Source of the DNA: a virus
Length of the DNA stretch: 24,842 bases
Reading direction: 5' to 3' (one strand)
Virus record (IMG/VR): IMGVR_UViG_3300032282_001781
Span: 1-24,842 of that record
Shown here: positions 6,173 to 20,572 of the stretch, piece after piece
Layout of the letters: the number at the start of each line of letters is the position of its first letter
Position numbering within the stretch: position 1 is the stretch's first letter
Made by a program: the position numbers and the translations under genes
Notes under the pieces: model-generated
What the model was told of the DNA's origin: nothing
Databases searched by the model: none
Seen by the model: only the letters and a program-made list of their open reading frames with translations

Positions 6173-6457
6173 ATGGCTCTCACACATCAAACCATAACTC
6201 TGTATGCCAGTGCTACGCAGCAGATAAGTCCTGTTGAAGTCCCGCCATATTGCGAGGGTGTCTCAGTGTCAGTTCAGAATCTCAACGGATCAAACTATGT
6301 CTACATCGGAAACTCTGGTACAAGTTCTGTGTCCTACGGATTCAGGTTGTCGCCGGGTCAGGCTTGGACAGCAGACATAGACCCATCAGACGCATTATTC
6401 GTGGCAACGAGTGACACATCTTCTCAGATTGCTATCACAAGGATATTCTGGCAATGA
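6173..6457 (+). CDS. Probable minor virion/tail protein
   Basis: A 94-residue protein made largely of Ser, Thr, Gly and Val strands (ITLYASATQQISPVEVPP, then GVSVSVQNLNGSNYVYIG, then YGFRLSPGQAWTADI, then ALFVATSDTSSQIAITRIFW), giving a beta-sandwich pattern common in small phage tail or decoration proteins. It has a strong ribosome site (GGGGGA at 6161-6166). It overlaps the next fibre-type gene by 4 bases, supporting a virion role. Confidence 0.7.
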   Translation: MALTHQTITLYASATQQISPVEVPPYCEGVSVSVQNLNGSNYVYIGNSGTSSVSYGFRLSPGQAWTADIDPSDALFVATSDTSSQIAITRIFWQ

Positions 6458-6918
6458 GCAGAATCGGCTTCACAGATGTTGTTCAGAAGGCTTATGGATC
6501 ATTCTATGACACAACAACGCAACACGCCACATCTGCAAATACTGCTTATCCAATAACATTGAACAACACAGACCTGTCCAGCGGGATTACGCTAAATGGA
6601 AGTTCTATCACATTCACGCAGGGCGGGGTATACAATGTTCAATGGTCCGCTCAGACTGGTGATACCGGAACGGCCAACTACAAGTTCTGGCTGAAAAAAA
6701 ACGGGCAGAATATGTTTGGAACAACGGGTACGATATCCGTAACCAATCAGAATAATTATGCACTACCAGCATGGAATTACTTTGTGAATTTAAATGCGAA
6801 TGATGTTCTGCAATTCTATTGGCAGAGTGATAGTAATAGTGCTTCATTGGTCTATGCCGCTTCCGCCGGAAATTATCCTTCTTGTTTCTCAATGATTGTT
6901 ACTGCTGTTCAATTATGA
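6454..6918 (+). CDS. Tail/receptor-binding type protein with C1q/TNF-like jelly-roll pattern
   Basis: A 154-residue protein. The order YGSFYDTTTQ, ITLNNTDLSSGITLNGSSITFTQGGVYNVQWSAQ, KFWLKKNGQNMFGTT, PAWNYFVNLNANDVLQFYWQSDS is the strand pattern of C1q/TNF-like jelly-roll domains seen in phage and marine-virus structural proteins, usually trimers on fibres or head surfaces. It overlaps the upstream virion-type gene (ATGA) and precedes the long fibre gene. A receptor or host-surface role is inferred from fold type and neighbours. Confidence 0.75.
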   Translation: MSRIGFTDVVQKAYGSFYDTTTQHATSANTAYPITLNNTDLSSGITLNGSSITFTQGGVYNVQWSAQTGDTGTANYKFWLKKNGQNMFGTTGTISVTNQNNYALPAWNYFVNLNANDVLQFYWQSDSNSASLVYAASAGNYPSCFSMIVTAVQL

Positions 6919-18743: not shown

Positions 18744-18926
18744 GTGGAAGTTGATAGAGTTTATGACCCATTCTCGCAAGAGAGTAGAGTTTATCTCTGC
18801 ATGACGGAGGATGAGTTGAGAACTCTCAGATTTGACATCGCAGTAGCATTGGCTTATATGCATGAGTTGGATGGAAACACTCTTGACGCAATGAATAGAT
18901 TCCTGTATGATACTGATGATGTCTAG
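18744..18926 (+). CDS. Hypothetical protein ending at tRNA-Arg
   Basis: A 60-residue acidic protein starting at GTG 18744, directly after the previous stop (MEVDRVYDPFSQESRVYLCM, then LRFDIAVALAYMHELDG). The last base of its TAG stop is the first base of tRNA-Arg, so the mRNA and the tRNA share a nucleotide. Unknown function. Confidence 0.6.
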   Translation: MEVDRVYDPFSQESRVYLCMTEDELRTLRFDIAVALAYMHELDGNTLDAMNRFLYDTDDV

Positions 18927-18998
18927 CCGCCGTAGTTCAGGGGACAGAACGCGAAACTTCTAATTTCGATGTCGCTGGTTCGAATCCAGCCGGTGGTA
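18926..18998 (+). tRNA. tRNA-Arg(UCU)
   Basis: Acceptor GCCGCCG/CGGTGGT, D stem GTTC/GAAC, anticodon stem CGAAA/TTTCG, loop CTTCTAA (anticodon TCT), T arm GCTGG-TTCGAAT-CCAGC, discriminator A18998. It reads AGA, a codon used often by the genes here. One C separates it from tRNA-Glu. Confidence 0.96.
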
Positions 18999-18999
18999 C

Positions 19000-19072
19000 G
19001 GCCCCATCATCTAGAGGCCAAGGATGCAGGACTTTCATTCCTGTCGCACGGGTTCGAATCCCGTTGGGGCTA
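19000..19072 (+). tRNA. tRNA-Glu(UUC)
   Basis: Acceptor GGCCCCA/TGGGGCT with a G1-U72 wobble, anticodon stem CAGGA/TCCTG, loop CTTTCAT (anticodon TTC), T arm ACGGG-TTCGAAT-CCCGT, discriminator A19072. Confidence 0.95.
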
Positions 19073-19085
19073 CAAAATTAAACAT

Positions 19086-19158
19086 GGTGTCATAGGCCGA
19101 AAAGCGAGGCGTATGTTTGTGGAACATATTGTAGCGGGAGCATTACCCGTATGACACC
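19086..19158 (+). tRNA. tRNA-His(GUG), non-canonical D and T loops
   Basis: G-1 at 19086 opposite C73 (19158), the His identity pair; acceptor GTGTCAT/ATGACAC (19087-19093 with 19151-19157), D stem GCC/GGC, anticodon stem TATGT/ACATA, loop TTGTGGA with anticodon GTG (19119-19121), 5-base variable loop, T stem GCGGG/CCCGT. The T loop is AGCATTA instead of TTCRANN, and the D loop GAAAAGCGA lacks the G18G19 pair, so the usual elbow contacts are missing. It lies in line with tRNA-Glu and tRNA-Lys. Confidence 0.75.
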
Positions 19159-19162
19159 CCAA

Positions 19163-19236
19163 GCCTCGTTAACTCAGTTGGTCAGAGTAGCGGACTCTTA
19201 ATCCGCGAGTCGTTGGTTCGAATCCAACACGGGGCA
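19163..19236 (+). tRNA. tRNA-Lys(CUU)
   Basis: Acceptor GCCTCGT/ACGGGGC with one wobble, D stem ACTC/GAGT, anticodon stem GCGGA/TCCGC, loop CTCTTAA (anticodon CTT), T arm GTTGG-TTCGAAT-CCAAC, discriminator A19236. One C separates it from the next gene's ATG. Confidence 0.95.
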
Positions 19237-19237
19237 C

Positions 19238-19704: not shown

Positions 19705-20009
19705 ACGAGGAAGAAGAGATTCATAGTCTGATCGATGATTTGGTTGCGATGGGTGCATTGATTCGTCAGCCTGATCCGGTCGGTGGAGAAGTTATGTACA
19801 ATGTCAATTCTGAAAGAATGGTAGAGGTAATGCCTTCATTATACGATTTGTTCATGGAAGAGATTGAGCAGACAATGCTTAGCCTGTACGAACAGGGTCT
19901 TGTGAAGATTGAGTATGATGAGAATCTTAAGGCATTGTATTCCCTGACCGAAGAGGGACATCGGGTAGTTGAGAGCATAATAATCACAACCCCCGACTTT
20001 GATGTATAA
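19701..20009 (+). CDS. Acidic protein with winged-helix-like pattern
   Basis: A 102-residue protein. SLIDDLVAMGALIRQPD and MLSLYEQGLVKIEYDENLKALYSLTEEGHRVVES read like the recognition-helix and wing portion of small winged-helix regulators (the xxGLVxxxxxxxxxxYxLTxxG pattern). It may be a transcription regulator or adaptor. The strongly acidic N-terminus is unusual for DNA binding, so this is tentative. Confidence 0.65.
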   Translation: MNEEEEIHSLIDDLVAMGALIRQPDPVGGEVMYNVNSERMVEVMPSLYDLFMEEIEQTMLSLYEQGLVKIEYDENLKALYSLTEEGHRVVESIIITTPDFDV

Positions 20010-20572
20010 TGGAATTGACAATGACTGACAATCGTAATGTTATTGACTTCTACAAAGGATGGGAAACAGATGCAATCAAAGCCGACCTTGATAGAAACCG
20101 TCTTCCCTTCATTGCCGCCTTTGAGCATGTCAACGGTGATTTCAATAAGGCTACCGGGATTCGCAACACCAATGGATTTCTGGGCCGGGAGGTTTGGATC
20201 GTAGGTGAGCGCGCGAAGCGCTATGACAAGCGCGGCACAGTCGGCACACACCATTATGAACACGTCAAGTACGCGGATTCGTGGCTTTCCGTTTTTAGAG
20301 GCATTGATGATTTTCCTGATTATCGTGTTGTCGCAGTTGATAATGTTAGTGGTGCGTGCGACATTAGAGAGTATAATTGGAGTCCGAAAACCATCATGAT
20401 GTTTGGCGAGGAGCAGCGCGGATTATCAGAAGAGGCTTTTTTGTTTGCCGATGACATTGTTTATATTCCCATGCGTGGATCAGTTCGCAGTTTCAATGTA
20501 GGAACGTCCAGCGGAATCGCAATGTATGATTATTTTACAAAAACGGGGATGAATGACCCCATTGACCTGTGA
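20009..20572 (+). CDS. SpoU/TrmH-family RNA 2'-O-methyltransferase
   Basis: A 187-residue protein with the SPOUT knot motifs: motif 1-like NRLPFIAAFEHVNGDFNKATGIRN, motif 2 KTIMMFGEEQRGLSEEA (FGEEQRGLS at 132-140) and motif 3 VYIPMRGSVRSFNVGTSSGIAMYDY (about 151-175). The family methylates ribose 2'-O of tRNA or rRNA with SAM. Arg/Asn/Glu residues of motifs 1-3 are present, so it is probably active. It lies about 0.8 kb after a tRNA cluster, which suggests tRNA as substrate. The start is ATG 20009 (TAATG overlap), with ATG 20021 as an alternative. Confidence 0.92.
   Translation: MELTMTDNRNVIDFYKGWETDAIKADLDRNRLPFIAAFEHVNGDFNKATGIRNTNGFLGREVWIVGERAKRYDKRGTVGTHHYEHVKYADSWLSVFRGIDDFPDYRVVAVDNVSGACDIREYNWSPKTIMMFGEEQRGLSEEAFLFADDIVYIPMRGSVRSFNVGTSSGIAMYDYFTKTGMNDPIDL

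Follow-up and report, generated by a model that had tools for sequence, protein, structure and literature searches.

tRNA-Pyl has neither the GG of the D loop nor the TPsiC sequence, and combines this with an anticodon stem of 6 bp, a CUA anticodon and a variable loop of 3 nt. Suppressor tRNAs obtained in the Steinberg laboratory from libraries of D and T loops reportedly show that alternative contacts between the two loops can function as well. Descriptions of tRNA give the contacts G18-Psi55 and U54-A58, together with their modifications, as conserved or universal. Conservation of U54, U55 and G18 is described in (PMC7912444). The G19-C56 pair forms an exposed platform that the ribosome, among other factors, reads, and loss of the elbow is described in mitochondria, where some metazoan tRNAs lack it (PMC4810234). 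Phage tRNAs with altered anticodon loops are described as well (PMC10264068), and cyanobacteria are known to carry long tRNA arrays (Anabaena trn operon type, PMC10272220). A tRNA-His of the same class as the one described here is present in Streptomyces phage Warpy (MF358541 95103-95176), with D-loop TAAAAGTAA, T-loop GGCGGTA, G-1, C73 and CCA; it is annotated only as tRNA-His, in a record that is silent on the unusual elbow.

The stretch of DNA analysed in this work (the window), a 24.8-kb virus record from IMG/VR, carries at 19086..19161, on the plus strand like all its parts and neighbours mentioned below, what is almost certainly a tRNA-His(GUG) with a recoded elbow, running from G-1 to an encoded CCA. 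From its 5′ end it consists of G-1 and the 5′ strand of the acceptor stem (GGTGTCAT, 19086..19093, pairing with 19151-19158), a connecting AG, the D stem (GCC at 19096..19098, with its partner GGC at 19108-19110) enclosing the D loop GAAAAGCGA (19099..19107), a single G, the anticodon arm TATGT-TTGTGGA-ACATA (19112..19128, with the anticodon GTG at 19119-19121), the variable loop TTGTA (19129..19133), whose last base is A48, the T arm GCGGG-AGCATTA-CCCGT (19134..19150, with the loop bases A54 G55 C56 A57 T58 T59 A60), the 3′ acceptor strand ATGACAC and, at 19158..19161, the discriminator C73 with the CCA. All helices are fully paired (acceptor 7+1, D 3, anticodon 5, T 5), the acceptor stem has 7 bp, the anticodon and T stems 5 bp each and their loops 7 nt each, and folding prediction gives the four-arm cloverleaf as the structure of lowest energy (-25.8 kcal/mol). 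An earlier, sequence-only reading of positions 19086-19158 was thus right about the complete helices, the G-1:C73 pair, the GTG anticodon in a 7-base loop and the T loop AGCATTA without TTC. Its statement that the D loop lacks G18G19 holds for G18, replaced by A18, but not for G19, which alignment with relatives shows to be present. The CCA at 19159-19161, which extends the gene beyond 19158 and went unmentioned in that reading, is encoded in none of the other ten tRNAs of the window.

With canonical bacterial tRNA-His the gene shares the cloverleaf, U33, the CCA, G19-C56 and both marks of that identity, G-1:C73 and the GUG anticodon; it differs in having A18.G55, A54.U58, A15.A48, A8.A14 and G21, and no U54, U55 or A58. 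As only C56 and G19 are retained from the usual U54 U55 C56 and G18 G19, it is filed here as a variant of bacterial tRNA-His. The Warpy tRNA-His differs from it in turn at 54-58 (G.G) and 8-14 (U.A). tRNA-Pyl resembles it in the missing D-loop GG and TPsiC, but membership in that family is rejected given its 5-bp anticodon stem, GUG anticodon and 5-nt variable loop.

The gene belongs to a close-packed array in the order Arg-Glu-His-Lys, where it is preceded by canonical tRNA-Arg(TCT) (18926..18999) and tRNA-Glu(TTC) (19000..19073) and followed, 2 nt past its CCA, by canonical tRNA-Lys(CTT) (19163..19237), all three recognized by ARAGORN and Rfam. The terminase of the window shares 62-66% identity with terminases of Streptomyces phages (e.g., Gilson, Wakanda). 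Besides ten canonical tRNAs, the window encodes an RNA methyltransferase of the SpoU family. An IMP dehydrogenase/GMP reductase family gene lies at 772-1905, and a protein encoded at 13777-14316 matches the phage family phrog_1040, named ‘peptidase HslV family’.

ARAGORN calls the 10 other tRNAs of the window and not the tRNA-His, which, in a 103-nt stretch, also stays below the gathering cut-off of the Rfam tRNA model RF00005, with no match even at E<=10. The suspicion that standard gene finders could miss it is therefore correct for the gene itself, whereas only part of the class of relatives described below escapes them, since ARAGORN recovers 20 of 235 class matches and several members pass RF00005 (e.g., at loci L211 and L107). 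The window contains a single perfect cloverleaf with T33-GTG, and no such structure arose in 1200 first-order Markov surrogate windows matched in composition. Direct similarity search with an 86-nt stretch in phages gave chance matches only, the exact core pattern of the tRNA-His no matches, and a pattern made of its anticodon and T loops alone six matches, none of them a cloverleaf.

A covariance model built from the tRNA-His alone recovered one relative, at the syntenic position of another locus (L003:9019-9093), with the anticodon CTT (Lys) and with acceptor and anticodon stems that differ from those of the tRNA-His. Comparison of the two yielded a loop motif, nnAAAGYGA in the D loop (A15 A16 A18 G19 Y20 G21 A22) and nGCAnTA in the T loop, and the class was searched for with these two loops, the GC of the D stem and two C's 3′ of the T loop, no other stem pairs being demanded. 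This pattern is found in at least 119 viral contigs of IMG/VR; among the 119 matches listed, 112 form at least 15 of the 17 pairs possible in the acceptor, anticodon and T stems, and one more forms 14. Redundancy removed, the class comprises 46 members with 15 anticodons.

Across the 46 members 97% of the helix cells are paired. Of the 17 column pairs with the highest mutual information, out of 2485, 16 belong to helices and the remaining one is the tertiary pair 54-58. When 41 members were counted independently, 93.7% of the cells were paired (59.2% after shuffling), and the covariation score reached 0.903, compared with 0.192 in shuffled and 0.10-0.17 in slid alignments. Compensatory changes in relatives, the check that the sequence-only reading had proposed, are seen across the class at the variable pairs of every stem of the tRNA-His, including 12-23 of the D stem and all five pairs of the anticodon stem. 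The idea that the gene is a decaying tRNA pseudogene could draw on its loops, which depart from the universal consensus, and on its escape from the finders; however, with all stems intact and such strong compensatory change among relatives, it is refuted as far as sequence allows, and we regard it as exceedingly improbable.

The same alignment points to an elbow that is remodelled rather than missing, contrary to what the sequence-only reading had suggested in calling the tRNA elbow-less: G19 and C56 are kept, and 54-58 and 8-14 covary. The pair 54-58 ranks 12th of 2485 (G.G 25, A.U 18, C.A 2, C.U 1) and 8-14 ranks 26th (A.U 22, A.A 13, U.A 8, G.G 2, A.G 1), and the columns -1/73 and 35/36-73 correlate too. 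Since the search pattern fixed or nearly fixed positions 15-22 in the D loop and 55-57 and 59-62 in the T loop for most members, invariance there, including that of G19 and C56, is no independent evidence; positions 8, 14, 48, 54, 58, 73, -1 and the stems are independent. A48, outside the pattern, is present in 46 of 46 members.

Additional information comes from tRNAs that ARAGORN detects by itself in the class loci, most of which have an ordinary cloverleaf and which represent intermediate steps. Among these, unique tRNAs with G55 have AG instead of GG in the D loop in 88 of 99 cases, whilst those with U55 have GG in 1724 of 1759; within the U55 tRNAs, a D-loop GA accompanies U56 in 20 of 24 cases and C56 in 2 of 1731. 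Because the counts in the two loops co-vary in this way, 18-55 (G.U to A.G) and 19-56 (G.C to A.U) shift as matched pairs, and the G55 set is not merely the class recounted, as 77 of its 99 tRNAs keep U54.A58. The concern that the class letters are an artefact of the search is countered by the pattern-free stems, by these calls of ARAGORN's own and by a loop-agnostic scan of arrays, at loci mostly picked as carriers of class members, which turned up 61 unique perfect cloverleaves that ARAGORN had not called, compared with 1 when the sequence was reversed.

Some tRNAs of phage and plasmid arrays with ordinary cloverleaves have T-loop TGCRANN together with A18, or TTTGANN together with A19, compensated examples being L070:5836 (Arg TCT) and L029 (Gly GCC). 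Perfect cloverleaves uncalled by ARAGORN, with Val(TAC) and Phe(GAA) anticodons, occur at L098:1436-1506, L161:5297-5369 and elsewhere; their T loops are AGCATAA or AGCGTAA and their D loops have AG, so that hidden tRNAs exist beyond the class searched for. A tRNA-Lys(UUU) of Synechococcus phage BUCT-ZZ01 (L212:1494-1567) has a class-like short D loop, but with GG, and the T-loop ATCGTTC, and is an intermediate with A54.U58 and a standard 18-55.

Metazoan mitochondrial tRNAs without an elbow (PMC4810234) share with the tRNA-His the lack of a canonical T-loop motif, and a tRNA of that type, whose D and T loops no longer interact, is what the absent TTC and GG would at first suggest. Nonetheless, the covariation of 54-58 and 8-14, the invariant A48 outside the search pattern and the compensation of 18-55 and 19-56 in related array tRNAs all speak against this reading, as do the retained 19-56 and the standard length and arms, and it appears very improbable. 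The Steinberg suppressors, for their part, are laboratory selections, whereas the class tRNAs are natural and have non-U.A pairs at 54-58.

Bacterial tRNA identities have characteristic discriminator bases, and the discriminator fits the identity given by the anticodon in 45 of the 46 members (His C, Lys A, Ile A, Gln G, Cys U, Gly U, Pro A, Asn G, Trp G, Phe A, Val A), the exception being a doubtful Ala member; G-1 and C73 are present in 8 of 8 non-redundant members with GTG (His). Matching discriminators and anticodons thus cover at least 12 amino acids. The stems of the tRNA-His also resemble those of canonical tRNA-His in arrays, with a mean identity of 0.68, whereas the mean to other isotypes is 0.42. 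Judged by stems, nearest neighbours are mixed, so that a single ancestor and repeated conversion are both possible origins of the class.

Furthermore, class members fill gaps. Among 147 cases in arrays with at least 8 canonical tRNAs, only 7 have a canonical copy with the same anticodon alongside the class member, where 94.5 would be expected; these cases are partly non-independent, many of the cyanobacterial arrays being closely related, but the effect persists in phages and for several anticodons (2 of 56 against 36.3 expected in phage arrays, CAT left out). In Microbacterium phage Magritte, for instance, about 30 tRNAs are annotated in the parts viewed, none of them for His, and the class His gene lies, unannotated, in the space that separates Pro from Asp. 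In a few genomes the canonical copy coexists with the class member, as in Streptomyces phage Angela (His) and at L161 and L195 (Ile).

Gap-filling bears directly on the other suggestion of the sequence-only reading, namely a decoy or mimic, a look-alike of tRNA-His that absorbs an anticodon nuclease or HisRS outside translation. Phage tRNAs have been proposed to counter anticodon nucleases (PMC10264068). The evasion put forward there works by mutation of the anticodon loop, whereas the anticodon loops of the class are ordinary in form (e.g., CTTTTAA). Lys(UUU), a classic nuclease target, is the commonest class anticodon among the matches listed. Yet a decoy would have no need to supply the isotype that its array is missing, nor do discriminators that match for at least 12 amino acids, a kept G19-C56 and the frequent CCA favour it, and we consider it improbable as an account of the gene; a protective side role of class tRNAs, beside translation, may still exist.

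The tRNA-His of the window is instead very probably a functional elongator tRNA-His(GUG) with a recoded elbow, from an uncultured tailed phage akin to actinobacterial phages. The sequence-only reading had allowed for a functional tRNA, and compensatory changes, identity elements and gap-filling, all read from sequence, strongly back that part of it. The Arg-Glu-His-Lys array is probably co-transcribed, and the tRNA-His would be processed like its neighbours, charged by the host HisRS through G-1:C73 and GUG, and used in translation as the His isoacceptor otherwise absent from the array. In its elbow G19-C56, read by the ribosome, RNase P and others, is retained, its role as a platform explaining why a working tRNA has not lost it, whilst the inner contacts are swapped as a set: 18-55 from G.U to A.G (the geometry of A18.G55 being inferred), 15-48 from R.Y to A.A, 21 from A to G, and 54-58 from U.A to A.U in the tRNA-His and to G.G or C.A in relatives. 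With G19-C56 kept and the inner contacts exchanged together, the L-shape should still form. As U54, U55, G18 and A58 are absent, the bases predict none of the usual TrmA, TruB, TrmH and TrmI modifications at those sites. For the SpoU-family RNA methyltransferase of the window (20009-20572), the best NCBIfam match is TrmH (Gm18), weak and under all cut-offs; carrying A18, a class tRNA could not serve as a Gm18 substrate.

Why such tRNAs are kept in mobile arrays is a separate matter. It is tentatively suggested that recoded tRNAs would be retained because they work on when host tRNAs are attacked or when factors reading the elbow are hostile. Put more generally, mobile arrays could be using an alternative but consistent elbow code, in matched sets across isotypes (18-55 G.U to A.G, 19-56 G.C to A.U, 54-58 U.A to A.U, G.G or C.A), maintained by escape from host factors that read the elbow or its marks; the enzymes or defence effectors escaped would be those reading the standard elbow or Psi55, T54 and Gm18, and 19-56 would keep the tRNA usable by the ribosome. 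This is a possibility of which we are rather doubtful. A serious rival, to which we give somewhat less than an even chance, concerns the reason for the change and not the function of the tRNA: phage tRNAs may simply tolerate compensated tertiary drift, with no host factor driving it. Graded intermediates, such as TGCAAAT accompanied by A18 and a retained U54.A58, are what stepwise drift would give; the same combination, however, keeps reappearing with many different anticodons, both in distant phages and in plasmids of cyanobacteria, and the strict pattern is rare in cells (12 of 292 genomes in Cyanobacteriota, 1 of 289 in Verrucomicrobiota). With these frequencies a housekeeping role of the class in cells is unlikely.

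No earlier description of the class was found in the openly readable literature, and prior notice in subscription papers is possible. Natural tRNAs of at least 12 identities with compensated replacements amount to natural experiments on what the elbow does in translocation, processing, modification and tRNA-cleaving defences. They also show that tRNAs go unnoticed when phage and plasmid arrays are annotated, and a statement that an array lacks an isotype can therefore be wrong. Among named phages the class is carried by Streptomyces phages Warpy and Angela, Microbacterium phage Magritte and Pseudomonas phage ventosus, where the class gene (anticodon TGG, Pro) is unannotated. A tRNA-Met of the Staphylococcus phage K group, which one query matched, is canonical and not of the class.

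In bacterial genomes the motif belongs mostly to tRNA-Ile(GAU) of Nostocales arrays, with few cases in Verrucomicrobiales and Chloroflexales; in Nostocales, long arrays of the Anabaena trn operon type (PMC10272220) hold a class tRNA for Ile, not for His. At L214 and many Nostoc loci, this tRNA-Ile(GAU) has a U.U mismatch at 6-67 in many strains, with U-A or A-U in its place in others, and some plasmid records annotate a ‘hypothetical protein’ across it. Class His tRNAs of three phages (L118:1446-1518, L163:311-382, L331:3001-3073) have the mid-acceptor mismatches 4-69 and 5-68 in common, and a 209-kb viral contig carries GOLLD RNA and tmRNA (L178:4933-5347 and 6310-6712) near an array with a class His tRNA.
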